Shown: piece by piece, positions 7,287 to 28,146 of the stretch | Layout: every line of letters begins with the position of its first letter | Numbering within the stretch: the stretch's first letter is position 1 | Assembly (NCBI GenBank): GCA_018303285.1 | Contig: JAGVYL010000002.1 | Location: 6,483-47,102 of the forward strand | Source: Candidatus Woesearchaeota archaeon | GTDB lineage: Archaea > Nanobdellota > Nanobdellia > Woesearchaeales > GW2011-AR9 | Length of the DNA stretch: 40,620 bases | Direction: 5' to 3' | Translations under genes and position numbers: made by a program | Notes under the pieces: model-generated | The model's input: only the letters and a program-made list of their open reading frames with translations | Told to the model about the DNA's origin: nothing | Databases searched by the model: none

Positions 7287-7685
7287 GTGATTATTATGTT
7301 GAAATGTGAATTATGTTGGTCGGATAAAGTGGTCAAAAAAGGGATGAGGCATAATGCTTCAGGATCGAAACAAAAATTTTTCTGTCACGATTGTAAAAAG
7401 TGGTATGTACATGATGATGGGTTTAAACGGATGAGAATCAAACCAGAACATATCGTGCGTGCTCTGCACGAATATGGAGATGGAGCATCACTTAAAAAAG
7501 TGAGAGAACATCTCAAACAGCATGATAATGTTCAAGTTACTCTATGGGCAATACGAAAATGGATAGTAAAGTATGCTCATCTCCTAAAAAAAACGAGCAG
7601 AAACTCGGTACTCCAACGATTAAGGGGCGTATCCACTTCGATGAAAAATATACCCGTGTCAGAGACCATTGGGAATATAGGCTAA
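7287..7685 (+). CDS. Transposase ORF A: zinc finger plus HTH
   Basis: CELC...CHDC zinc-binding motif followed by HTH; ends after overlap with ORF B. Confidence 0.8.
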   Translation: MIIMLKCELCWSDKVVKKGMRHNASGSKQKFFCHDCKKWYVHDDGFKRMRIKPEHIVRALHEYGDGASLKKVREHLKQHDNVQVTLWAIRKWIVKYAHLLKKTSRNSVLQRLRGVSTSMKNIPVSETIGNIG

Positions 7686-8224
7686 CTGCAATTGATAGTA
7701 AAACAAAAATGGTTCTTGCTGAAATTGTCGTTGTAGAGAGAACACTAAAAGCATGCGTTGCATTTCTCAAACAAATTAAAGATTGGTGCTACAAACAGAT
7801 GCTAGAGAAGTACAGAGAAGAAATGAAGAAACCTGTCAGTAAAAGAAAATTGATTATTTTTGTTTCAGATAAATTTGGAAATTATACATCTGCATGGAAA
7901 AAATTGTTTAATAGGATCACCAAATTGCGATTTGGAGTTCCAATCGCCTGTAAAAAATTTGGATTGAAACATAACAACAATAGTGTCGAACGGCACAATC
8001 GAGAACTGAATAGAAGATTTGATGCCCTCAATGTTTTTCAAACGCACGAGGGAGCACAAGTAACCTCAACAATGTCCAAGATATTGCATAATTATGTCAA
8101 TCCTCATAGTATGCTTCATGGAAAAACGCCTGCAGAGAAAGCAGAACTTATTTTGCCATTGGGAACAAATAAGTTGCTGGGAATGATAGAATTAGCTAGA
8201 AAAGCGGAGATGACGACAAGTTGA
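7544..8224 (+). CDS. Transposase ORF B: DDE catalytic domain
   Basis: FDEKY...VSDKFGNY...VERHNRELNRRF motifs; continues ORF A in the -1 frame. Confidence 0.8.
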   Translation: MGNTKMDSKVCSSPKKNEQKLGTPTIKGRIHFDEKYTRVRDHWEYRLTAIDSKTKMVLAEIVVVERTLKACVAFLKQIKDWCYKQMLEKYREEMKKPVSKRKLIIFVSDKFGNYTSAWKKLFNRITKLRFGVPIACKKFGLKHNNNSVERHNRELNRRFDALNVFQTHEGAQVTSTMSKILHNYVNPHSMLHGKTPAEKAELILPLGTNKLLGMIELARKAEMTTS

Positions 8225-9798: not shown

Positions 9799-10563
9799 AT
9801 GACCCGTCAACCCGTCGTCGCTGGAATGTTTTATCCCAAGAATCCTGATGAGTTAAAACAGATGCTCAGCTCTTTCCTGGAACAAGCAGAAGAGATTAAA
9901 CTGAAAGAAAAACTGCGGGCTTTAATCGTTCCTCATGCCGGATACATCTATTCTGGAATCGTGGCAGCACAAGGGTATAAACTCTTAACCAAGAACCAGT
10001 TCCAGAAAGTAATTTTGCTTGGTCCTTCACATTATGTGGCTTTCTATGACGCGGCTATCGCGGATGAAGATTTCTTAACTCCATTAGGGAAAGTAAAAGT
10101 GGGAGAAATCAATAACTGGATTAAAGAAGGATTGGTGGAAGTATCTTCTGAAGCACATACTAAAGAGCACAGCCTGGAAGTGCAGCTGCCGTTCCTGCAG
10201 GAAACGTTAGGAGATAGGTTTGAATTATATGCTTTAGTATTAGGAACGGTTAATGAAGCTAAATTAGCTAAATTTATTTCCGAGAAATTGGACGAGGACA
10301 CTATTGTGGTGGTCAGCTCTGATTTAAGCCATTACCTGCCCTATAATAAAGCCGTTCTAAAAGATAACCAAACCCTCAACAACATTCTGAAAGGCGATGC
10401 GGCTAATTTAGATGCCTGTGGCAGAATTCCCATTAAAGTATTGATGCATTTAGCTGAACTGAAAGGCTGGAAGCCCAAATTATTGGACTATCGCAATTCT
10501 GGTGATACGGCTGGGGATAAAGGAACGGTGGTGGGGTATGCGAGTATGGCGTGGGTGGAATAA
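9799..10563 (+). CDS. MEMO family protein (AmmeMemoRadiSam system protein B)
   Basis: RQPVVAGMFYPKNPDEL, VPHAGYIYSG, LGPSHY, HSLEVQLPFLQ, SSDLSHY motifs. Confidence 0.93.
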   Translation: MTRQPVVAGMFYPKNPDELKQMLSSFLEQAEEIKLKEKLRALIVPHAGYIYSGIVAAQGYKLLTKNQFQKVILLGPSHYVAFYDAAIADEDFLTPLGKVKVGEINNWIKEGLVEVSSEAHTKEHSLEVQLPFLQETLGDRFELYALVLGTVNEAKLAKFISEKLDEDTIVVVSSDLSHYLPYNKAVLKDNQTLNNILKGDAANLDACGRIPIKVLMHLAELKGWKPKLLDYRNSGDTAGDKGTVVGYASMAWVE

Positions 10564-10650
10564 AATCTACGGAATACTTTCCGCTGCCTAAGCTGTCCTT
10601 TCCAACATAATCGCAAACCCAACTGGCTCGGTAGGCTCCACAACCGGAGG
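10562..10650 (-). pseudogene. Duplicated fragment of the small lipoprotein gene at 14874-15209
   Basis: Ungapped 89-bp match to 14898-14986 with six mismatches by eye; reverse strand reads SGCGAYRASWVCDYVGKDSLGSGKYSVDF. Confidence 0.85.
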
Positions 10651-10733
10651 CGATCCAAGCTTCGTCGCTCTTGTAATAGTGGTTAACCTAGATGGCACTA
10701 GTTTTATATACTTTGTTTTTCTTTACCAGAAAT

Positions 10734-11501
10734 ATGTTTAAAAGAGGTCAGATAACAGTTTTTATTATAATCGGGATAGTGGTGTTATTCATAATGGTAG
10801 CTCTCTTATCAACCTACTCTACTATTTCTCTGAAAAAGACTACTGTCTCTGAAGAGGGAGTGTTGGATGCAAGTAATATTGCCGGCCCGATAAAAAGTTA
10901 TGTGGAGTCTTGTTTGGAAAAAACTACCCAAGAGGCTATTTTTGAAAATGGGCTTAAAGGGGGTTATTTTCAGCTTCCCGAAAGATCTACTACTGAATAC
11001 TTAGATAATCTTCCTTATTATGTTTCTCTTGGAGAAAGTTTAATCCCAAACCAAGAAACTTTAGAACAAGAAATACAGAACTATACAAATTACTTTCTCT
11101 ACCGGTGCTTGAAATTTGACTCTTTTAAACAAGAAGGATATAATATAAGTTACGTTGCTCCACAGACAAAAATTATTATTAAGCCCAAAAAAATTATGGT
11201 CACTTTGGATATGCTTGTAGAAATCCAGAGAGATGCTTTTATCACTCAAATATCTAAGTTTGTAGTAGTGATTCCCAATGACCAGCTTTATGCTGATTTC
11301 CAGAGCGTAATAAACGTGCTCAATGAAAGCCAAAGAGGCATGTTTTGTCTTAGTTGCATAGCCACAGAAGGGAAAAAAAACAATCTCACTTTTGTTATCA
11401 ATTCTTTAGGTAACAACACCCACATAATCCGGGTTGTAGACAATGATTATGTCTTTTATTTAGAGCCTTATATCTTAAATTTTGTGGTTAACTATGGTTA
11501 A
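10734..11501 (+). CDS. Pilin-like membrane-anchored protein, cassette gene A2
   Basis: MFKRGQITVFIIIGIVVLF class III-like signal; PIKSYVESCLEKTTQEAIFENGLKGGYF motif shared with A3. Confidence 0.8.
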   Translation: MFKRGQITVFIIIGIVVLFIMVALLSTYSTISLKKTTVSEEGVLDASNIAGPIKSYVESCLEKTTQEAIFENGLKGGYFQLPERSTTEYLDNLPYYVSLGESLIPNQETLEQEIQNYTNYFLYRCLKFDSFKQEGYNISYVAPQTKIIIKPKKIMVTLDMLVEIQRDAFITQISKFVVVIPNDQLYADFQSVINVLNESQRGMFCLSCIATEGKKNNLTFVINSLGNNTHIIRVVDNDYVFYLEPYILNFVVNYG

Positions 11502-14088
11502 AAACAGTTGGGTTTGGCTAGCAGTATTTTTGTGTTTAGTTGCAACACTCTCAGCTTTAGATGCCCCTACTTCAAATGATCTTAATGCATTTAATCCGAA
11601 TAATCCCTCCGTTTTCGACTACACTAATGGAGATTATTCTACTATTACTGATTGGAGCAAAGCGGATTGGAACCAAGTAAGATGGGAGAACATTCCTTGG
11701 GGGACTACAAGCTCTAATTCGAAATTTTGGGAGAGCATTCCTATAGATAAAGTTCCCGATATTCCTGAAGACAAAATAAACTATATGTTATTAGGAGAGA
11801 ATCAGAGAAAAGCACTTACTACTAACCAAATTGCGGTTAACTTAGATAAGATTGAGAATCTTGCCACGGATGTTAATCCAGATAATGCTCGGGAAGCAGT
11901 ACTTCAGAAGGCAGGCATATTGGTGGAAAGCTTTGGACAAGGAACTCGGGTGGAACAAGGAATGTTGAAATCAACTACTGGAAAAAAAGACCGGCTGGAT
12001 TTAGGAAAAGTCTCTTCAGAGGGGAAATACTCTCTTAAATCGGGATGGATTGTTACGGTCACAGAAGAGGGGGAAATTTTAGTAAGCAAAAAAAGCCGAC
12101 CAATGGAAGGAAGTTCCCTAGAGGAGGACGTTCCGGTAGAAGAAAAAGATTTTTCGCCCCAAGATTCTTTTACTCTTGAGAGAGTGGATGTTCAACTGTC
12201 TAACGGAAGGGTTGTTCGCCAGGCGAGGCAGCTTAGTTACAAAGAGGAAGAATATTATGTGCCTGAAGGGAAAGAAGCTTATGTTGACTTTTATAAAATT
12301 GGTTTATCTGCTAATGAAGGGGATGAATTAGATCGGTATCTTCTTGAAGACGAAATTAAAGAAGGAAAGATACAGCCCATTACAGTTTATTTTGATGGGA
12401 AAGAACACTCGGGAGATTATGTTTCTTTAGGAGAAAAAGAAGTTTCTTTAGGAAGCACCAACAAAGAAGAAGTAAGGTTAGCACCGCAGCCGGGGAATGA
12501 ATTCTTTTTGATGATAAAAAGAGTCTATGAAAAAGATGATGAAGAGAAATTGATACCAAATCGTTTCACTTTGGTCCCTGATGAGCGAGACACCCTAGAG
12601 ATTACAGTTAAACCTGGAGCCAGCATACTAATAACAAATCGCAAAGAGGACAATTTAATTCCATTAGTACAGAGTACCATTAGTGGTAGTGGTAGTGTAG
12701 AAATAGTAACTGGTCCCGGTAGCAAGATAGAAGACATCACCAAAGGGGCATCATATGATTTGAAATCTGCGGCTTGGGGAGATGTTAGTTTGATGAACGG
12801 AAACAGCGTTCCTTTAGAATTTATTCCAACTGATAGAAAATCAAGAATATTAATTACTTCTTCTAATCGCCTGGCAGCAATAGACTATGATGATGTTAGC
12901 CGCTTTTACGCAACTACCGCTGCTGGACTTAAAGTAACAAACAATCTAGATTTTAACTTGATAAAAACCGAAGACGATGTGGCAGTAAGATTCCCAAATT
13001 TAGAGTTTGCAAGAAAAAATATCTGGACCGGGGAGACAAATCCAAAGAATTATCCCGTAATCAGCCCAAATCTCGCTCAGCTGACTATAGAATGGCTGGA
13101 AAAAAATCCGAAAGTTGGCATTTTAAAAGGGGTATTTTTTGCGGATACTTATAATGCGGCTAATATTAATGATCCCAACAAACCGGGTTATATAATAATT
13201 GGAGATAAGATTTCTGAAGAAGAGAACTTAAAGATGACCGGCGTACGAGAGATGAAAACGGTCTTCGAAGTACTAAACCACGAAATGAACCACATGCAAG
13301 ATACTTACGTTAAAGTAGAAGAGAATAAATTGAATGGAAAAGAGAATCCCACTTTAAATGAAGTTTATAAAGAACTCTATGAGGACTTTGGAAAACAACT
13401 TACACTGGAGAAAGGGTTCCAACTATTCTTGAGTGAACCTTCACCACCGATAACACTAGGCAACCTTAAAACTAGAAGAGAAGACATTGCTACTGTTCTG
13501 AAAGCATTGGTTGATGATAATGTTGATAATGTCAAGAACGCAGCGAATGCGCTTCAGATTACAGAAGAAAAATTTCGAAAAGAGATTATGGAAAATCCGA
13601 TTATTAGTCGTGTCGCAAAAAAAATACTTACCACAGAAGGATTAGAAGTGAATGGAAAAATAGTATTACTTGAGTTTAATGAGAATTATGACAAAGCTAC
13701 TCCTGAAGAAAAGAGTAGTGTTGCTGCTGCTTTTGTGAGTGAAAAGCTACCTGCTTTATCCTTCCTGAAGATTGATGATACTAACCTCCAGTCAGCAGTA
13801 AGAGAAATAATTCCTTTAAAAGAGGGAGAATACGCACTTCACGCCTATCTATTCGAAGAAGGTAGATCATACGCCGAAATGGGAACTGTACCTTTAGAAA
13901 TTCCACCTAATCGGGTAGCGATGTCTATCGCCAGCGGCAATGAATTTCTACGTAAAGCCACCCAAGTTGCTTACGATGTTGGTAAGATAGATCAATTAGA
14001 ATACCAACAACGAATGGGCTTTTATTGTGATGTTTTTCCTCAAAATTGTGGTAAGTGTATTGTTTACAAGCGCACTTGCAAGCCATAA
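11494..14088 (+). CDS. Large exported putative zinc metalloprotease, cassette gene B2
   Basis: Signal peptide; HEMNH (HExxH); homologous to 25011-27401 (YEKDDEEKLIPNRFTLVPDERDTLEITV; NLAQLTIEWL); C-terminal Cys motif CDVFPQNCGKCIVYKRTCKP. Confidence 0.8.
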   Translation: MVKNSWVWLAVFLCLVATLSALDAPTSNDLNAFNPNNPSVFDYTNGDYSTITDWSKADWNQVRWENIPWGTTSSNSKFWESIPIDKVPDIPEDKINYMLLGENQRKALTTNQIAVNLDKIENLATDVNPDNAREAVLQKAGILVESFGQGTRVEQGMLKSTTGKKDRLDLGKVSSEGKYSLKSGWIVTVTEEGEILVSKKSRPMEGSSLEEDVPVEEKDFSPQDSFTLERVDVQLSNGRVVRQARQLSYKEEEYYVPEGKEAYVDFYKIGLSANEGDELDRYLLEDEIKEGKIQPITVYFDGKEHSGDYVSLGEKEVSLGSTNKEEVRLAPQPGNEFFLMIKRVYEKDDEEKLIPNRFTLVPDERDTLEITVKPGASILITNRKEDNLIPLVQSTISGSGSVEIVTGPGSKIEDITKGASYDLKSAAWGDVSLMNGNSVPLEFIPTDRKSRILITSSNRLAAIDYDDVSRFYATTAAGLKVTNNLDFNLIKTEDDVAVRFPNLEFARKNIWTGETNPKNYPVISPNLAQLTIEWLEKNPKVGILKGVFFADTYNAANINDPNKPGYIIIGDKISEEENLKMTGVREMKTVFEVLNHEMNHMQDTYVKVEENKLNGKENPTLNEVYKELYEDFGKQLTLEKGFQLFLSEPSPPITLGNLKTRREDIATVLKALVDDNVDNVKNAANALQITEEKFRKEIMENPIISRVAKKILTTEGLEVNGKIVLLEFNENYDKATPEEKSSVAAAFVSEKLPALSFLKIDDTNLQSAVREIIPLKEGEYALHAYLFEEGRSYAEMGTVPLEIPPNRVAMSIASGNEFLRKATQVAYDVGKIDQLEYQQRMGFYCDVFPQNCGKCIVYKRTCKP

Positions 14089-14135: not shown

Positions 14136-14846
14136 TTAAAAGATATTCTCTAAATCTTGCATACAAGTTGGACAAAAAGTACCATAAATCACTTTCTCCT
14201 CCTGGCCAAGAACACGGCCTAAAAAGTCAGCCTTCTGCTGCACAAAAGAAGTATGGCTTTGCATTACGCATTCATTAACACAATGTCTTCCAGCAGGAGT
14301 ATACTTTACATTTTCTATTCGTTCATTTGGGATTAAGCCTAAAATATGGCCCATTTCATGCATAGCTAAACTTCGAATATTTTGGCAGGCATCTTTTTTT
14401 TCTCCATGTCTAGAAGCATAAGTTGAGATTACCGCCGCTTCTCCCGATGCAGCCAGGCCATTCAAAAAAATAGTTTCCCCATTGACTTCAATATAAATTT
14501 CCTCGTGATGCACCAAGATTTCATAAGGCTTTTTTTTCCAGCTGTGATGGCTTCCTTTGTCTCGTGGTGCTCTTTCACTTAATGCAGAAAGAAGCGCTGA
14601 AGCGTTGAGCAAACCTTTTCTTTCACTAGCAATTCTTCCTTGTTCAATATACCAATCAACACTCTGATGAGGTTTTAAAGAACCATCTGCATTTTTGTGC
14701 TCTTCCGTTTTCCAATCATACAAATTAACCAAACCATTACTCCCTGCCGCGGTTAGCATAAGAACACTGTAAATACCATCCATCACCGCTTTTCTTTCTA
14801 ATTCATAAATCCCTTCCTGGTCCATGATACGAACAGGTTTAATCAT
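14136..14846 (-). CDS. Archaemetzincin-like zinc protease
   Basis: AMHEMGHILGL ... GRHCVNECVMQSH ... FCPTC: archaemetzincin-type HExxHxxG, C-x3/4-C-x-M and CxxC with an insertion. Confidence 0.75.
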   Translation of the reverse strand: MIKPVRIMDQEGIYELERKAVMDGIYSVLMLTAAGSNGLVNLYDWKTEEHKNADGSLKPHQSVDWYIEQGRIASERKGLLNASALLSALSERAPRDKGSHHSWKKKPYEILVHHEEIYIEVNGETIFLNGLAASGEAAVISTYASRHGEKKDACQNIRSLAMHEMGHILGLIPNERIENVKYTPAGRHCVNECVMQSHTSFVQQKADFLGRVLGQEEKVIYGTFCPTCMQDLENIF

Positions 14847-14873
14847 TTTTAACTTTCCTCGGTTTAATCTGTC

Positions 14874-15209
14874 TCATTCTTCCATCTTTTCGTAATCAAA
14901 ATCTACGGAATACTTCCCGCCGCCTAAGCTGTCCTTTCCGATATAGTCGCAAACCCAACTGGCTCGGTAGGCTCCACAGCCGGAGGCTGCCCATATCTCA
15001 TTTCGGTGTTCTACAATTTCATAAAGATCCTTATCTAATCGGTTCAGTTCCGGGCTGCCATCATAATACTTGGACTTCCACTCGCAGGTGTTTCCAAATG
15101 CATCTTCTAACTTTTCCACTTTAGCCATGCATTCTTTTAGCTTTGCATCCTGGCATCCGCTAGTTAAACCCATTAGTACAGTTGCAATGGAGATTATTGA
15201 TTTGTTCAT
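14874..15209 (-). CDS. Small Cys-rich putative lipoprotein
   Basis: Lipobox-like LTSGC; overlaps the upstream gene by ATGA. Confidence 0.65.
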   Translation of the reverse strand: MNKSIISIATVLMGLTSGCQDAKLKECMAKVEKLEDAFGNTCEWKSKYYDGSPELNRLDKDLYEIVEHRNEIWAASGCGAYRASWVCDYIGKDSLGGGKYSVDFDYEKMEE

Positions 15210-16786
15210 TTTTGTTCCAAGTCGCCTGGCTCTTTAGGGAAATGATACTTTTTGGTCAAATCTATCACTTCATCAAATGCTGATGCCATTAGTCCTTTGA
15301 ATTTATTTTCCCTTTGGGGCGGAGTGAACGTTTCCCTGCCTCTATCTGCCATGTTATAACTTCTTCCTAGATACACTTCATCCGGGGAGACATACCAAAA
15401 CATTCCCGCTATCATCTCTTCACTAGGGGCATAAGTTCTTCGATGTGTGGCAAGCGCGATATCTCTTGCAATATTATCATCACCTGCGCCAGTCAAGCAT
15501 GAAGCCAAGACTATAGTTGCATCATCAGCCAAAATTTGGTCTAATGGTCCCAGCCATTCACCCATGGTATCTTTTGAGATAAAATATGCATCATCACCAT
15601 AACCATCTACAAGCATGAGGTTCTGCAGGCCATGCAGATGGAAAGTTATATTTCCTGCCGTGATGCCTCTTCCGCGCAAATATGTCAAAATCTCGCCTAA
15701 TTTTTTGTCTTTTCCTGGTTGAATTGCAATAGGCGCATAATCTTTTAATTCACGGAGTGCATAATCATCGTTTGTTTCTGGCTCTATCATCATTCCATTA
15801 ATCTCAGGCTCCCGAGTTAGAACATAAATTGCCGCCGGCTTTTCTTTGGGGTGCTCGATAGTGTGGATGGTGCGTTCCAATAATTCCGTAGAGAACCACC
15901 CGAATTGTATAATCCCTAAATTATAATAAAGTAATGCCGGATTGCTTACGGTTTCAATCCTCTCAAAATTTTGTTTTTCCACTAGATTGGAAATTTCCGG
16001 TGCAGGAACACTTTGGAACCCTTTGCTTTCTAATGCTGATAAGCGATAAGAAATATTAACCATATCGGATGAATCTGATAATAATCCTATCAGTGCTATA
16101 TATACATCTATTCCATTGGTTTTGCCGATCATTTTCTTTAGCTTAGGAACATATTTTTCAGGCACTTCACCCAGACATAAGGCTAACACTTCCTCAGGAT
16201 GTTTTTTTAAGAAATTCCAAGCATACTTTTCGTTATCTTTTGAGAATAATCTCTGAAAATAATCTAAATTGTGCTTGATTTTAGCTGGGGATACTTCTGT
16301 TAATCTCTTTTTTAAATGCTCATAATTTTGTACAACATAATCGATATCTATTCTGAAAGCTAAACCGGAAGCTAGACTGAGGGAATCACTAATTTGTCTG
16401 GATACCTGGTTTAGGTCCGCTGTAAATTCTGAATCACTGCATACTTTAACATATTTTCTTGCTAGGTATCTTGACAAGTCCCGAGATTCATATTCGGATC
16501 TTTTCTCATTGGCCACATATTCTTCTACAGATTTTAGTTTCAATTCAAGTGTGGTGCTTTTACAATTTTCTCTGGCTTTAGCTTCAGCTGCTTCAAAAGA
16601 GCTTATGGCTGCATCAGCAGCGTCGGTAGAAGTATCCTTTTCAGTGGATTGTACATTCGGATTATCAGGCGGCGTTTGGGCATGTGCATAATTTGGCCCT
16701 GATGCTAGTATAGTGCCCATTATTCCCAGCCCAATAACTGGCTTAACTAAAGCTCGGGTTATTTTTTCAAGTGTGTTTTTTGTCAT
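15206..16786 (-). CDS. Exported protein with clan CD (CHAT/DUF4347-like) domain
   Basis: Sec signal ending AHA; NITFHLHGLQNLML followed by ATIVLASCLTGAGDDNIARDIA: His-Gly and SC-x-TG dyad layout. Confidence 0.65.
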   Translation of the reverse strand: MTKNTLEKITRALVKPVIGLGIMGTILASGPNYAHAQTPPDNPNVQSTEKDTSTDAADAAISSFEAAEAKARENCKSTTLELKLKSVEEYVANEKRSEYESRDLSRYLARKYVKVCSDSEFTADLNQVSRQISDSLSLASGLAFRIDIDYVVQNYEHLKKRLTEVSPAKIKHNLDYFQRLFSKDNEKYAWNFLKKHPEEVLALCLGEVPEKYVPKLKKMIGKTNGIDVYIALIGLLSDSSDMVNISYRLSALESKGFQSVPAPEISNLVEKQNFERIETVSNPALLYYNLGIIQFGWFSTELLERTIHTIEHPKEKPAAIYVLTREPEINGMMIEPETNDDYALRELKDYAPIAIQPGKDKKLGEILTYLRGRGITAGNITFHLHGLQNLMLVDGYGDDAYFISKDTMGEWLGPLDQILADDATIVLASCLTGAGDDNIARDIALATHRRTYAPSEEMIAGMFWYVSPDEVYLGRSYNMADRGRETFTPPQRENKFKGLMASAFDEVIDLTKKYHFPKEPGDLEQK

Positions 16787-18003
16787 TTTACCTCTTCTCG
16801 TAACTGTTGTCTATATCGTTCAACCAGTGGAGCTAAAATTTTTTGTCTCTTATACTCCAACTGCTCTAAATTCTGTAGCACGGGCTCGTTCAAGCGTAAT
16901 CTCATGGGGGCAGTAGTGATTGGCCCCCTATAACCGTCAACCAAAGAATCAATTACGGCGGCAAACTGTTCTTCCATCTGAGAATCATGATATAAATTAA
17001 ATGTAGTTTGCGCTCCGAGAGCTAATCCAGATGAAATATTTCCATAAATAATAAGCAGGTCAACATAAGATACAAGTGCCCGGTCTATTCTCTCGGCCAG
17101 AGCAGGGGAGATTTCTTCATTATTTTGGGAGGTTATATTGTCAACCATTGAAGAAAGTAAATCCATATACTCTTTTTTTGTTTGTTGATAGCGAGTTAGG
17201 TCAAATAGTTTTCCTCGAGCTAGAGGATTATCGATTGGTTCTACTTTTGGACAGGCGGGGGATATTTTAGATGATTGGTGATAAATTATCTTTGCTTCTT
17301 CTTTGGCACATTCTCCGGCATCAACAGAAGTTTTAACTATCTTTGCAGCGGCGGTATATTTTTCTTTAGTACAGTTAGGAAACATTTTTTTGTAGGCATC
17401 ACGCGTGGCTTTAACTGCGTCTGAATTAAAATCTACCCCTAACTCTTGCAAAATAGCAGTAAATTCTCGGTCATATTTATCTAAAGCTAAGAACTCTTTA
17501 CAAAGCGACAAGTCATGGATCTGCTCTCCAACCTGACTAAAGATTTCTGCAGTTTTCTCCATCTTAATTTGTAATTGGCGAAAGCTTTCTGCATCAGGCA
17601 TCTGTAACCTTTCATCAATTGCTTCAGCTAATTTTTCTTTTGATTCTTTTGAAAGACTTGGATAGATATGATGCCCTAATTCATGTTCTAAAGAATCAGT
17701 CTGACACCGGGTATAATCTAGAGTGCAACGGATAATAATCTTATTTGGCAGGTAACTACAAGTTAAGATGGAGTTAGTAGTTTCTAATTCCACTGTCAAT
17801 TCTGATTGTTCAATCTCTTCAGCAATCACGGGAGAAAAATCTTCTGCCCTTCTTTCAAGATCTGCCTGTGCTTTTAATCGATTCTCCTCTTCTATTGTTG
17901 GTTGGACTATTTTGGGTGTGTCTGGTTTAACAGCTACTTCTGAAAGATTACATCCAGCAACTGCTGTGACAATCAAAGAAGATATGATCTTGGGTAGGCT
18001 CAT
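16783..18003 (-). CDS. Putative HExxH metalloprotease lipoprotein
   Basis: Lipobox-like AVAGC; DSLEHELGHHIYPSLSKE. Confidence 0.7.
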   Translation of the reverse strand: MSLPKIISSLIVTAVAGCNLSEVAVKPDTPKIVQPTIEEENRLKAQADLERRAEDFSPVIAEEIEQSELTVELETTNSILTCSYLPNKIIIRCTLDYTRCQTDSLEHELGHHIYPSLSKESKEKLAEAIDERLQMPDAESFRQLQIKMEKTAEIFSQVGEQIHDLSLCKEFLALDKYDREFTAILQELGVDFNSDAVKATRDAYKKMFPNCTKEKYTAAAKIVKTSVDAGECAKEEAKIIYHQSSKISPACPKVEPIDNPLARGKLFDLTRYQQTKKEYMDLLSSMVDNITSQNNEEISPALAERIDRALVSYVDLLIIYGNISSGLALGAQTTFNLYHDSQMEEQFAAVIDSLVDGYRGPITTAPMRLRLNEPVLQNLEQLEYKRQKILAPLVERYRQQLREEVK

Positions 18004-18021
18004 TTAGTTTTCTCCGCTTTT

Positions 18022-18894
18022 TTATTTCTCTTTAGGATTTATCATTTCTTCCATTTCCAAATATTTTACTGGTGGATTTGTTATTAAGTCCACATCAGTT
18101 CCTTCTTTAAGTCCAATCCAAGCCGGAAAATCACATCTACGGTCTTCCTTCCTTTGAAAAGACATAGACTTCGCACGATAAGTGTTAAAGACAACAGAGA
18201 AATTCTTTCCGGCAGTAGCCTGAGAAAGGAAATATCCCAACGGATTTCCACAACCTATCTCTGTACGACATTCACCTGTGCTTCTTGGAGAACATTTTTT
18301 AGATGAAGGTTGTTCTATCGCATGCCATGCACCAAAAAAGAGAATTACTTTTGATTCGGGATTATCTGAAAAAACTTTCTTCTCCAGATTGTGGTAGATT
18401 TGAGCATCTCGATTAACTACTTTTCCTTCTATTTCATCTGGTCCGTCATGACAATCATGAGAATCAATAGCGTACACTTTAATCCCTGCTTCTTTTGCTT
18501 TATGTAAAAAGTAGAGGAACCCTTTACGCATACTATAAGTTTCTTTAGAGAACTGCTCATCGCTGATCTCCCCTTCTAAAAAGCGGTCTAATATTGGTTG
18601 GCTGTGATAGTCTAATTCTACTCCTAAGTTATTGTACCCTCTCGTTTTCAGTTTTGCCAGCAAATCACCTGCAAAATAATCATCTGCATCAACATCATGA
18701 AATTCACCTAAAATAAGGGTTTGGCTTTGTTCAGCTTGTTTGAGAATAGTTTCCTCTAAATCTGGCGTTTGCTCATTTTTTTTAAGAACAATTATTTGTG
18801 AAGGGCTAAGACTAGTCATCTCTAAGTTAGAAGTAGCGCATCCGGCTAACGCAAGAGCTAGACTTGCTCCTGCAATTAAATGTTTTAGACTCAT
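18022..18894 (-). CDS. ChaN-like lipoprotein
   Basis: Lipobox LALAGC; LILGEFHDVDADDYFAGDLL ... GVELDYH ... FFGAWHAIEQ. Confidence 0.7.
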   Translation of the reverse strand: MSLKHLIAGASLALALAGCATSNLEMTSLSPSQIIVLKKNEQTPDLEETILKQAEQSQTLILGEFHDVDADDYFAGDLLAKLKTRGYNNLGVELDYHSQPILDRFLEGEISDEQFSKETYSMRKGFLYFLHKAKEAGIKVYAIDSHDCHDGPDEIEGKVVNRDAQIYHNLEKKVFSDNPESKVILFFGAWHAIEQPSSKKCSPRSTGECRTEIGCGNPLGYFLSQATAGKNFSVVFNTYRAKSMSFQRKEDRRCDFPAWIGLKEGTDVDLITNPPVKYLEMEEMINPKEK

Positions 18895-19448
18895 TTTCTC
18901 TTCTCCGTTTTTTCATAATTACATTTTATTTTTGGATTAGAAGAAGTTGCTGTAGCTTGATAAGCAGTCAAATCTTCTAAAGTAATATATCCATCATTAT
19001 TGAGATCATCTGCAGGAGATAAGTAACAATCACCATTGACATCTGCAGGAATAAAGTTATCTTTAATTGTTCCTGCGACCAAATATGCAATCATAGATGG
19101 AGATAATTCACCTTTTCTGACCTTATCGCAATCGCTGTTCCACAATATGTATTCCATTATTAGAGATTTAGCATATTCTAACGAGCCAAGCCGGCCATCT
19201 TTTGGATCAGCTTTTTCACTCGAGCAGGGAGATTGCCAGCCATCATATCTTTGAATTGTTTTTGCTAATTCGGTGAAGCAAGTTAAGTCCTTTTCCATCA
19301 ACTCTACAGAAGATGAAGATGAACAAGTGGCTTTGTCTGCTAAAGTAGTCTTAGAATAAGCAGGAGCATCTGCCAAAGCAGGCGAACTAGTTAACCCTAA
19401 ATAAAATGCTGCCAGTCCAGTTATGATTGCCGTTTTTATGTTTACCAT
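18891..19448 (-). CDS. Exported dockerin/EF-hand-like protein
   Basis: Signal peptide (SPALADA); DVNGDCYLSPADDLNNDGYITLEDLTAY. Confidence 0.7.
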   Translation of the reverse strand: MVNIKTAIITGLAAFYLGLTSSPALADAPAYSKTTLADKATCSSSSSVELMEKDLTCFTELAKTIQRYDGWQSPCSSEKADPKDGRLGSLEYAKSLIMEYILWNSDCDKVRKGELSPSMIAYLVAGTIKDNFIPADVNGDCYLSPADDLNNDGYITLEDLTAYQATATSSNPKIKCNYEKTEKRK

Positions 19449-19581
19449 TTTGTGTTATCTCTTTATTTTTTAAGTTATCCTCATTCTGTGCTTAAAATCT
19501 CTCTAGTTTATAAACTTTTTGTTATTTTTATCACTTTAGAGTAGTCTCCAAACAAAGAGGACTGAATCTGTCATTTTTCTC

Positions 19582-23866: not shown

Positions 23867-24008
23867 GTTTTTTTATTTTAGCAATGAAAAAACTATCGTC
23901 ACTCACTCTATTCGTGCTGGAAGTTTCTTTATCTTGGCGATAAAAAAACTATCGTCACTCATTCTATTCTTGCCGGAAGTTTTTTTATTTTAGCAATAAA
24001 AAAACCTT
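23867..24008. repeat. 56-bp tandem repeat, about 2.5 copies, at the 3' end of the methyltransferase gene
   Basis: Units start at 23867, 23923 and 23979 (GTTTYTTTATYTTRGCRATRAAAAAACTATCGTCACTCAYTCTATTCKTGCYGGAA). Confidence 0.9.
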
Positions 24009-24921
24009 CCGTATCATTGTCCTGCGGCCAAATACGCAAGCACTTTTTTATTTCTGGAGAATATGTTTCTTTTTCAAACTGTAGAACGGCCGGACTGTGC
24101 TTTAAACCGTGCAGTTTTATTTCTTCCAATCTGGCTGCAGGATATTTCTCCAAAAGCCAATTGATTACTCCTTCATCTTCTTCCGGCTCTAAAGTGCAGG
24201 TAGAATAAACCAGCTCTCCGCCTTCTTTAAGATTGTTGAAAGCTGTTTCCAAAAGCTTTCTTTGCTGAGAAGCCAACCGTTTGGCCGCTTGAGGATTCCA
24301 CCAGTTAAGAATGCGGGGAGATTTCATAATTGTTCCTGTACCTGTACAGGGGGCGTCCAAAAGAATCTTATCGAACTGTATGGTCTTAAAACCATAGCCA
24401 GTCATATTTGTAACTACCACATTGAGAATGCCGCTTCTCTGAAGATTAATTCCCAAGGATTTGATTCTTTCTCCGCTCAGCTCATTGGCAATGATAATTC
24501 CTTTGTTCTGCATCATGGCGGCCATCTGAGTTGTTTTACTCCCTGGAGCAGCACACATATCCAAAACAATCTCTCCTGGTTTCGGCTGAAGAACAATAGG
24601 GGGAATCATGGATGAAGCATCTTGGACGTAGAAATAGCCAAGATGATGCTCAAGCAGATTACCGATGTCTCGGCGTTCTTCTCTCTTATGGCTGATCCAG
24701 AATCCTTCCTTACACCAAGGAATAGGCTGAAGAGACCAGTTTTTTTCTATGCGGTTTTTTAATTCAGAAGCAGATATTTTGAGAGTGTTAGCACGGATAG
24801 AACGGCGAAGAAAAGAGAGAGAAGCTTGTTTGAATGTTTCCCAATCAGTTAATTGAGAGTATCTCTCGATAAACTTTTCTTTGAAAACGTATTTGCCGGC
24901 ATTGGGGAAGGGGGGAAGCAT
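23959..24921 (-). CDS. Nop2/Sun (NSUN/RsmB-type) RNA m5C methyltransferase
   Basis: VLDMCAAPGSKTTQMA, DKILLDAPCTGTGTIMKSP, LVYSTCTLEPEEDEGVI. Confidence 0.95.
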   Translation of the reverse strand: MLPPFPNAGKYVFKEKFIERYSQLTDWETFKQASLSFLRRSIRANTLKISASELKNRIEKNWSLQPIPWCKEGFWISHKREERRDIGNLLEHHLGYFYVQDASSMIPPIVLQPKPGEIVLDMCAAPGSKTTQMAAMMQNKGIIIANELSGERIKSLGINLQRSGILNVVVTNMTGYGFKTIQFDKILLDAPCTGTGTIMKSPRILNWWNPQAAKRLASQQRKLLETAFNNLKEGGELVYSTCTLEPEEDEGVINWLLEKYPAARLEEIKLHGLKHSPAVLQFEKETYSPEIKKCLRIWPQDNDTEGFFIAKIKKLPARIE

Positions 24922-24972: not shown

Positions 24973-25016
24973 CTTATTTATTCGGTATTTATTCGATATT
25001 TATTCGGTATTTATTC
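24973..25016. repeat. 11-bp tandem repeat, about 4 copies
   Basis: TATTTATTCGG/A repeated across the stop codon of the 25011-27401 gene. Confidence 0.85.
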
Positions 25017-27401
25017 TGCTTTACAAGTTAGTTTATATTTCAGGCACGGTCCACACGGGTTTTTACTGCAATATGAACCATCTTTGCCGCCCATAATTTG
25101 ATAGTACCTTTCTTCGGCTTGCTGCCAAAGCCAGTCTGGAGGGTCAGTGCTTATCACTAAATCGTATTCTAACTGGGCACAAGATAAACATTTTTTGGCT
25201 TCAGGAATTGGCAACTCGCTGTATACAGAAAATATTTCTTCATAATTTCCTCCGTAAGCCCTAAATGCATACGGATAAAAACCAGTTTCTTCCCGTATGA
25301 AATGCGTATACCTGTTTCTTAAATCCTCTGCCCCCTCAATTTTTTCCTCGGTCCAATAATCCAGATTAGCGCCAATCTTTTGGATGTAGTCCGCTCTGAG
25401 GGGGGAATCCTTACTTTCTAGCATAAGAGATTTTAAATGTTCTCCGTTTGCTACACCTTTTCCCAGGTCTTGTGCTTTTCTTGCTAATTCTTCTACTTCT
25501 TCGACCATTATTTCAAAATCTTCAGAAGAACTAACATATATCTCATCCGCAAGATTAACCGCTATCGTGTTTTCTTTCATTTCAATACCTCTCGATTTAA
25601 GGATAGCTTTAAGGTGTTTATCTCCTAATTCCATAATCTGACTATTTAATTCTTTTTCAGTTATTTCTTCGGATTCAAATCTTTCTAAAAGCAATCCTTC
25701 TTCAACAAGATATTCTGGTGAATCTTTAAGATGTACCTCGGAAGCTTCTTTAGAAATTATATACCCCTTCAGAATGTGTTTAAACTCATGATCTAATGTT
25801 CCTAAAGGCGTGGTCCCAGTTCTGATTGCAGGATTAAAAGAAATAGTGGAACCGTCCATCATTCTTTCTCCTACGGATAAGGTTAACAAAGTGCCTCCGG
25901 CATTTAACTGAGTGCCAAAGTACACTTGAGAGATGTATTTGTTCAGGCTGGTTTTTCCTTTTAGCCATTGGTCTGTAGTTTGGGCTAGATTAGCTGTAAT
26001 CTCTTGGTATTCTGGAGGAGTAGGATTGCCATACCCTTTTTTAAGATACTCTTCTATACTTTCTGGTGTAGCCATTCCGATAGAAAAATCTATTTGGGGG
26101 TGTTTCACCCGCAGATCATCCATAGTTTTCATCATATTCGATTCAATAAAATCAGAAACCTCCAGCCCCAGACTATTTCCCCCTATAGGTTTATCGTTTC
26201 TTAACAAAAGATATCTATTTGAAGAGCTTGTTCTAAGAAGGTCTGCGAAATTATTTGAGATCAATTCCATAGCAACACTATTCCGTTGGTCTATCGGGCC
26301 GGCCTTTCCTTCGAATGGCTTGGAAGGAATCATAGTCAGTTTTCCTTCCTGGACGTTTATTCCCATTCGGCCATTTTCTAAACTTGTTTTTCCGCCTCCG
26401 TTCTGATGCCTTAATAAAGGAGTTTTTTCCGCTTCGGCACGAGAAATAACCTCTAAATTATCTCCCCCCAAAACAGTTATAGACAGCGTATCTCTCTCAT
26501 CAGGCACCCAGGTAAACTTATCTTTAATCAGCTTTCCATCTTCATCTTTCTCGTACTGCCGTTTTACCATATTGAACAGAAGATTTCCCGGTAGAGGATC
26601 GATTTTAACCGTTCCGTCTTTAGTCGTTCTGATATCTAATCCTGCATCAGAGATAGCTATATAATTACCTTCTGGTTTGATTAAAGGATTAAAATGAATA
26701 TCTATCGGATTGGTCTCTGCGAGAATCTCGTAAAAATCTATTCTTGCCGTATTCCCTAGTTTCACATAGCTTTGACCATTTCTAAAACTAAGCGATTTAA
26801 CGGACAGAACAGAGCCATCTTTTCCAATGTATGCTGTTTCCTCCTGTATGGTAAAACTATCTTCAAAAGAAATGCTGCTTTCTTGAATTTCCTTGAGACC
26901 GAGATGATTTATCTCTCCGTTTTCATCTATTTCTACTTCCCAGCCTTCCTTTCCGGCAAAGACTAAACTCTCCTCTTCTCCAAAAGTAGCTCTAAGAATA
27001 CCGTGGACGATTTTAGCGCTCTGGCCTAAGCTTTTAACCTTGATTTGGGTTACTTTTTCGATCGCCTCTCTGGCGCGCTCTTCGTTTACATCAATCGCTA
27101 AATTGTTAATTTTTTCTAGATTAAGAACGATTTGTTCTGTGGTCGTAGCCAAACGTTGATCCACGTTAAGTTGATTGTAGTTTAGTTTATCTGCGGGGAC
27201 ATCGGGAATTCTGGAGGGGGGAATTTTACTCCAGATTGCATTACCCCAATCGATAGAAGAATAATCGCCGGTTTGATAATTGAACTGCTCTGGTGCATCT
27301 TTGTTCCAAGGACAATCAATATCTTCTGGACAAGCGGCAAAAGAGATAGGAAGAACTAACAAGATAACTAGTATGAATAGATTAAGTTTATTCTTTTTCA
27401 T
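25011..27401 (-). CDS. Large exported putative zinc metalloprotease, cassette gene B3
   Basis: Signal peptide; HEFKH (HExxH); paralog of 11494-14088; C-terminal CSKNPCGPCLKYKLTCKAE. Confidence 0.8.
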   Translation of the reverse strand: MKKNKLNLFILVILLVLPISFAACPEDIDCPWNKDAPEQFNYQTGDYSSIDWGNAIWSKIPPSRIPDVPADKLNYNQLNVDQRLATTTEQIVLNLEKINNLAIDVNEERAREAIEKVTQIKVKSLGQSAKIVHGILRATFGEEESLVFAGKEGWEVEIDENGEINHLGLKEIQESSISFEDSFTIQEETAYIGKDGSVLSVKSLSFRNGQSYVKLGNTARIDFYEILAETNPIDIHFNPLIKPEGNYIAISDAGLDIRTTKDGTVKIDPLPGNLLFNMVKRQYEKDEDGKLIKDKFTWVPDERDTLSITVLGGDNLEVISRAEAEKTPLLRHQNGGGKTSLENGRMGINVQEGKLTMIPSKPFEGKAGPIDQRNSVAMELISNNFADLLRTSSSNRYLLLRNDKPIGGNSLGLEVSDFIESNMMKTMDDLRVKHPQIDFSIGMATPESIEEYLKKGYGNPTPPEYQEITANLAQTTDQWLKGKTSLNKYISQVYFGTQLNAGGTLLTLSVGERMMDGSTISFNPAIRTGTTPLGTLDHEFKHILKGYIISKEASEVHLKDSPEYLVEEGLLLERFESEEITEKELNSQIMELGDKHLKAILKSRGIEMKENTIAVNLADEIYVSSSEDFEIMVEEVEELARKAQDLGKGVANGEHLKSLMLESKDSPLRADYIQKIGANLDYWTEEKIEGAEDLRNRYTHFIREETGFYPYAFRAYGGNYEEIFSVYSELPIPEAKKCLSCAQLEYDLVISTDPPDWLWQQAEERYYQIMGGKDGSYCSKNPCGPCLKYKLTCKAE

Positions 27402-28146
27402 TATAACGCACCGCAAATCTCAAATGATATTTTTCCCCTTCGTGAAGATACTCGCTTTGTTCTATATCAAACAGATAGGTGTCATTACTAACAGAAAGAA
27501 GATTAACGAAAAGACCATTTTGGGAAGCTAATTCTGAAAAACAGCTTAAACAGACTTCTTCGTCTTTTTGGGATTGAACAATCTGCTTGGCCGTCTGAAA
27601 GGCAGAGTACATCTTTTTAGATGAGATTTCCGTAACAAAGGAAGAAATCTCTTTGACTTGATTATTTTTGGTGATAGTTGCCAGAAGATTGGTGTTCAGA
27701 ATTATTTTTTGCGTAGTTAAGATGACCTGAGAAGAAGGTTTAGAAAAATTAATGTTATAATCGGAATCTTTGGAGAAATCAGTTACGCATAAGCCAACTA
27801 ATGAATCAACGTATTTAGATAATTGCTGGGCGAGGATTTCATCTGTAGGAAAAATGTTTTCTTTTCCATTAAGATAGTAGGGGACATTTTCTGTTGATTC
27901 TAATGTTGATTTTTCCGATAGAATGAAGTAACCGCCCCGCCGGCTGTTCTCAAAGACGGCATCTTCCAGAGTTTTCTTTAGGCAAGATTGAATATATTCT
28001 TGAATTGGACCAGTGTTTAAAACGTTTGGCTCCGGCTTCTCTTTAAAGGAAAAAAAGAAAAACGCGGCAAGGATAAGAAAAAGGAAAATACCAAAAATAA
28101 TAAAAATAGTAATTTGCCCCGTTTTAGCCATATGCTCGTTAAACAA
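27388..28146 (-). CDS. Pilin-like membrane-anchored protein, cassette gene A3
   Basis: MAKTGQITIFIIFGIFLFLIL class III-like signal; PIQEYIQSCLKKTLEDAVFENSRRGGYF; overlaps the next gene. Confidence 0.8.
   Translation of the reverse strand: MFNEHMAKTGQITIFIIFGIFLFLILAAFFFFSFKEKPEPNVLNTGPIQEYIQSCLKKTLEDAVFENSRRGGYFILSEKSTLESTENVPYYLNGKENIFPTDEILAQQLSKYVDSLVGLCVTDFSKDSDYNINFSKPSSQVILTTQKIILNTNLLATITKNNQVKEISSFVTEISSKKMYSAFQTAKQIVQSQKDEEVCLSCFSELASQNGLFVNLLSVSNDTYLFDIEQSEYLHEGEKYHLRFAVRYNEKE

Follow-up and report, generated by a model that had tools for sequence, protein, structure and literature searches.

Among described proteins, those closest to the set considered here are the DUF4347, CHAT and caspase domains (PF14252, PF12770 and PF00656) of clan CD, the archaemetzincins (M54) such as AfAmzA, the ChaN/Tiki heme-binding uptake superfamily and the HExxH zincins. 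CHAT proteases act in prokaryotic defense, Csx29 being an example (PMC10028731). Archaemetzincins follow the consensus HEXXHXXGXXHC, in which the third histidine comes two residues after the glycine (PMC3427221). Our literature searches found no paper on the function of DUF4347 or on an operon that brings such proteins together. Here, we analyzed a 40,620-nt stretch of DNA (the window; contig JAGVYL010000002.1, G000:C2:6483-47102) from a genome of 0.99 Mb in 50 contigs (94% complete). The host is an uncultured DPANN archaeon with a small genome, probably of the Woesearchaeota group, and the nearest named relatives found were the archaeal metagenome-assembled genome DeMMO3_35 and Candidatus Woesearchaeota RIFCSPHIGHO2_02_FULL_33_21. 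The window carries six open reading frames (ORFs) in a row on the minus strand, and we hold, with moderate confidence, that they form a co-transcribed operon that would place several putative hydrolases outside the membrane, is one of a promoter-linked set of clusters that shuffle their genes and probably has a proteolytic role.

The genes run from 19448 down to 14136 and are numbered against the direction of transcription, so that ORF6 is transcribed first and ORF1 last. Three junctions overlap by ATGA (ORF6/ORF5 at 18891-18894, ORF4/ORF3 at 16783-16786 and ORF3/ORF2 at 15206-15209), and the other two junctions are spaced by 18 nt (ORF5-ORF4) and 27 nt (ORF2-ORF1). Together with a single promoter, these tight junctions imply joint expression. 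A preliminary description made from the letters alone had reported this arrangement, and the ORF coordinates bear it out. It had also called the set an exported-protein operon with signal peptides or lipoboxes on five genes. This holds for ORF2 to ORF6, which begin with hydrophobic N-termini (12-residue mean hydropathy 2.0-2.3) and among which ORF5, ORF4 and ORF2 carry the lipoboxes LAGC, VAGC and TSGC, but not for ORF1, which has a value of 1.68 and no evident signal peptide by N-terminal hydropathy and inspection; all of these export calls were read from hydropathy and by eye. ORF4, ORF3 and ORF2 gave dN/dS ratios of 0.18-0.22 against their orthologs in a sister genus (genome G039), which points to purifying selection and shows them to be functional genes.

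The central member is ORF3 (15206..16786, minus strand), a 526-residue protein with a signal peptide, a helical N-terminal half and a C-terminal clan-CD/DUF4347-like domain (roughly residues 295-526) that contains H385 and C430. Close orthologs were found only in G039 (80% identity) and in another Woesearchaeote, L046 (about 70%). More distant matches in a first survey, in G051 and G075, have an HG...SC.TG region in common with it, and the G075 protein weakly matches CHAT and DUF4347. A profile search recovered domains related to the C-terminal region in 24 of the 371 genomes of the phylum; judged by this profile, that half of ORF3 is a member of a sparsely distributed DPANN family. When 29 family proteins were aligned, H385, G386 and C430 were the only invariant columns. 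DUF4347 was matched by 11 of the 29 (best E 9.1e-7) and a few members weakly matched CHAT or C14; the single DUF4347 matches listed fall below the curated Pfam cut-off, and nearly all members are sub-threshold. Profile-profile comparison (hhalign) of the three ORF3 orthologs gave 98% with the other 26 family proteins, 84% with nine more distant members and 0.05% with the unrelated ORF4 as a negative control, where the family had been collected with a profile that included ORF3 and the independent evidence is the DUF4347 matches. Selection constrains the CD half more strongly (dN/dS 0.10-0.14) than the N-terminal half (0.26-0.36). Export-like N-termini are found in 19 of 26 family members, compared with 30% of 164 background ORFs.

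Like DUF4347, CHAT and caspase domains, ORF3 has a hydrophobic strand with His-Gly after it and, some 40-50 residues later, a hydrophobic strand with Ser-Cys after it. It differs from them in being exported and archaeal, in its unrelated helical N-terminal half and in matching no Pfam model. That ORF3 is clan-CD-like is well supported by its sequence, and a caspase/CHAT-type fold can be proposed from it. Searches of PDB sequences with ORF3 and with the CD family gave nothing meaningful, and the caspase model PF00656 had no match in the host's own genome. Elsewhere in the family, three genes for membrane-anchored clan-CD-like proteins stand in tandem on G051:C106 (L047, L071 and L076), and a Cys-rich protein of L097 (G109:C108) contains a DUF4347 domain that passes the Pfam cut-off, together with a C-terminal dockerin-like repeat, so that a single chain unites features of ORF3 with features of ORF6.

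Two further proteins resemble metalloproteases. ORF4 (16783..18003, minus strand; 406 residues, VAGC lipoprotein) is a putative zincin-type enzyme, with the HELGHH helix of HExxH zincins and a conserved downstream glutamate within E345-Q-F. H107, E108 and H111 of the HExxH motif and E345 are invariant in four homologs, and E345 is a candidate third zinc ligand. Unlike known zincins, ORF4 fits no family model; no Pfam family was assigned, and a PDB sequence search gave no meaningful match. Among the genomes surveyed, its homologs occurred in just four, all of one family, and the G039 ortholog is 90% identical. The last 200 nt of the gene (window 16776-16975) are 80% identical in DNA to the G021 homolog (L028 12604-12803), while the whole proteins share about 35%; this local similarity would reflect either recombination or strong local constraint.

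ORF1 (14136..14846, minus strand; 236 residues) is a divergent metzincin-like protein with the pattern HEMGHILG-x17-HCVNECVM...CPTC. It matched the NCBIfam model archmetzin (E 3.8e-4), and a profile of its family matched solved structures, namely PDB 2x7m (E 1.6e-6) and 3zvs. As in AfAmzA and other archaemetzincins, HEXXHXXG, HC, C-x3-C-x-M and CXXC are all present, and the zinc residues are invariant in five homologs, one of which (L035) is one residue longer between HC and the second cysteine. Unlike those proteins, the family of ORF1 carries an insertion after HEXXHXXG and ahead of the third histidine; in ORF1, 17 residues rather than two separate the glycine (G170) from the third zinc-binding histidine (H188), so that ORF1 departs from the archaemetzincin consensus, and the stretch before CXXC is longer. 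Because of the spacing of the third histidine, we class ORF1 by its motifs as archaemetzincin-like only and do not assign it as a true M54 archaemetzincin.

The first gene of the operon, ORF6 (18891..19448, minus strand; 185 residues), encodes a protein with a signal peptide (ALA|D) and a C-terminal double calcium-binding (dockerin/EF-hand-like) repeat. It had been described as a dockerin/EF-hand protein, of which the double repeat stands; its best EF-hand match (E 0.0028, 17.5 against 25.4 bits) is under the Pfam cut-off, and no dockerin model was among its Pfam matches. ORF5 (18022..18894, minus strand; 290 residues, LAGC lipoprotein) lies above the gathering score of the ChaN/Tiki family PF04187 (E 1.7e-9, 38.4 bits against 27.7) and has the family's GxxH...E...GxxH residues, which are invariant with three distant homologs, each with an N-terminal cysteine. 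It differs from the described superfamily in being an archaeal lipoprotein within an exported-protein operon, and heme binding or protease activity is putative here; a PDB sequence search gave nothing meaningful. The HELGHH lipoprotein, the ChaN-like lipoprotein and the archaemetzincin-like protease named in the preliminary description were therefore recovered as ORF4, ORF5 and ORF1, by the invariant motif and lipobox, the PF04187 score and lipobox, and the structure-profile search, respectively.

ORF2 (14874..15209, minus strand) is a small Cys-rich TSGC lipoprotein of 111 residues with an ortholog in G039 (76-78% identity) and weak homologs in G035 and G011. A 90-bp fragment elsewhere in the window (10562..10651, minus strand) is 93% identical to the 3' part of ORF2, with a 36-residue protein match at 83%, and abuts the stop codon of a MEMO-like gene; judged by this similarity, it is the decayed remnant of a lost second ORF2 copy.

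About 60 nt before ORF6 lies the element AAGTGATAAAAATAACAAAAAGTTTATAAACTA (19504..19536, minus strand), consisting of an upstream motif and a TATA box, which is common to related clusters. The shared motif is AGTGATAAAA-N10/11-TTTATAAA, and the element reads as an archaeal TATA-type promoter with an upstream element. About 100 nt 5' of ORF6 align with the sequence ahead of the opening gene of another exported-protein cluster of this genome (the second cluster), and a block of the form TACTnnnnAGTGATAAAA-N10/11-TTTATAAA also precedes the G039 counterpart of that cluster and the G021 operon containing an ORF1 homolog. The block occurs once in the window, with zero occurrences expected by chance. 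The fetched sequence, about 744 kb with overlaps counted, contained four distinct sites of the block, each before an exported-protein cluster or an operon with an ORF1 homolog, a count that is not a fair genome-wide test since this sequence was chosen for holding such genes. Because the same motif stands before several clusters, those that share it are probably switched on together.

The complete six-gene set was found nowhere else among the surveyed genomes. What recurs is the order ORF4-ORF3-ORF2, kept with the same overlaps in G039. The preliminary description had looked to conservation of the neighborhood in relatives, and this was seen for the trio but not for the six-gene combination: relatives of ORF5 stand alone, and those of ORF5 and ORF6 are located elsewhere than the trio. 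The second cluster of the same genome lies on G000:C2 a little to the left of the window (L029, at about 2.2-5.8 kb) and has an 86% paralog of ORF6 (90% DNA identity), flanked by EF-hand-like lipoproteins and an exported protein. Repeats within L029 indicate recent duplication in this cluster. Lipoproteins with Tat-type (RRGFLG) signals and tandem EF-hand-like lipoproteins are found there (L029 2185-5799). A G021 cluster contains homologs of ORF1 (38%), ORF4 (35%) and an EF-hand-like lipoprotein (49%) and is without ORF3. Ahead of the G039 trio stands the 3' end of a gene for an EF-hand-like lipoprotein such as the second cluster encodes. An exact 99-nt overlap joins the end of this contig to another, on which the same lipoprotein gene begins and which carries the shared promoter; this fits adjacency of both contigs in the assembly graph. 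Contig L045 of DeMMO3_35 and G039:C4 are the same contig (identical over the 200 bases compared). The most likely history is that ORF4-ORF3-ORF2 form a stable core and that the clusters have traded genes with one another and duplicated them. A recent horizontal transfer linking the trios of G000 and G039 was considered but need not be invoked, as AlaRS is 89% identical between these genomes, compared with 90, 80 and 76% for ORF4, ORF3 and ORF2.

In the mechanism we propose, transcription from the TATA promoter with its upstream element would give a six-gene message. Outside the cytoplasmic membrane, its products would comprise the secreted clan-CD cysteine-peptidase-like ORF3, the zincin-type lipoprotein ORF4, the ChaN/Tiki-type lipoprotein ORF5, the small lipoprotein ORF2 and the secreted calcium-binding-repeat protein ORF6, with the archaemetzincin-like ORF1 apparently cytosolic. 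Their most likely job would be protein processing or digestion at or beyond the cell surface. We favor extracytoplasmic proteolysis as the most likely activity because family resemblances and conserved residues predicted to be catalytic point to it. Its purpose may be nutrient scavenging, maturation of the surface or an action on neighboring cells, and these candidates are indistinguishable at present. More tentatively, the locus could belong to a promoter-linked regulon of reshuffled surface operons, in which core enzymes (the clan-CD-like protease, the zincins and ChaN/Tiki) are combined by recombination with interchangeable lipoproteins so as to make contact with other cells or exploit them; we would consider this broader proposal possible but doubtful.

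Several observations weigh against a proteolytic surface operon. ORF3 alone matched nothing in Pfam, NCBIfam or PADLOC, and AlphaFold2 run with three-sequence alignments returned a mean pLDDT of only 31.8 for the full length and 30.4 for the C-terminal half. The clan CD-like protein with a His/Cys dyad anticipated in the preliminary description is thus upheld at the level of sequence (the dyad in 29 of 29 proteins, the domain matches and the profile comparison), but its fold is unconfirmed. Not every protein with a CHAT- or DUF4347-like fold, nor every archaemetzincin, is a demonstrated protease, and most genes of the CD family lie in ordinary neighborhoods, not beside proteases. In L046, the ORF3 ortholog stands by itself. 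Cohesin (PF00963) was not found in the host genome, 94% complete as it is, whereas a control genome was positive. Anchoring through a cohesin-dockerin pair involving ORF6 was rejected, as the genome lacks cohesin.

The solitary ORF3 gene, the isolated ORF5 relatives, the conservation of the trio only and the frequent rearrangement recorded by repeats and remnants would also suit a set of co-directional exported genes that are functionally unrelated, brought together by chance as genes were repeatedly duplicated and inserted in a lipoprotein cluster that is hypervariable, with only ORF4-ORF3-ORF2 cooperating. We regard this as a possible but clearly weaker explanation, since the tight junctions, the ATGA overlaps and the one promoter imply joint expression, and homologs of ORF1 and ORF4 meet again in one G021 region. 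Somewhat less probable is that the CD-like domain is non-catalytic or self-processing and that the operon serves chiefly for adhesion or as a surface coat. Related clusters are indeed dominated by small lipoproteins and calcium-binding repeats, and proteolysis is only predicted; yet the sole invariant columns in 29 diverse sequences are H385, G386 and C430, and constraint is strongest on the CD half, as for a catalytic site. The least probable account, and a very improbable one, makes ORF3 a regulated death or immune effector, a caspase/CHAT-like executioner, and the operon a defense or cell-suicide module. Its clan-CD-like His/Cys motif and the defense role of CHAT proteases such as Csx29 invite this comparison, but ORF3 has a signal peptide, four neighbors carry export signals, PADLOC gave 0 matches for the six proteins and no sensor or defense gene was recognized adjoining ORF3. 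Given these signal peptides and the lack of defense matches, a cell-death or defense role is unlikely. A viral origin was rejected separately, as the viral_contigs collection held no relatives of ORF1, ORF3, ORF4, ORF6 or the promoter motif; no plasmid relatives of ORF3 were found. Weighing these alternatives, we retain the exported and probably proteolytic operon. The "cell-surface proteolytic module" of the preliminary description is plausible, although as one variant of a shuffled set rather than a fixed six-part system.

Further features were noted elsewhere in the window and in other genomes. At 10692-14088 (plus strand) and 25011-28146 (minus strand) are paralogous pairs, in each of which the gene of a pilin-like membrane protein precedes that of a large exported protein (868 and 801 residues) with a zinc-protease-like HExxH-type motif. 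A similar pair in G313 (L078 3764-7154 and L079 3227-6675) has a clan-CD-like domain in place of the zinc-protease-like one, which suggests exchange of C-terminal enzyme domains. Two 45-bp elements (670-713 and 1505-1549; 91% identical) lie upstream of two neighboring genes at the left end of the window, an 83-bp direct repeat (23867-24005; 86%, partly overlapping) adjoins the gene at 23959-24921, and an IS-like transposase at 7287-8224 (plus strand) is apparently split across two overlapping frames. On L033 (6989-11260, minus strand), an Lhr-type helicase ORF has an apparent intein ending in ...VGNIITHN-C.

What emerges from the analysis is a clan-CD-like family, unannotated and for the most part exported, that is present in 24 of the 371 genomes surveyed; with ORF1 comes what looks to be an archaemetzincin variant whose zinc-binding loop is altered. 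Nutrient acquisition and action on other cells are little known in DPANN archaea, and the operon supplies concrete candidate genes with predicted catalytic residues. Together with its related clusters, it may represent an adaptable set of surface tools, with feeding on other cells or interaction with them as possible uses.

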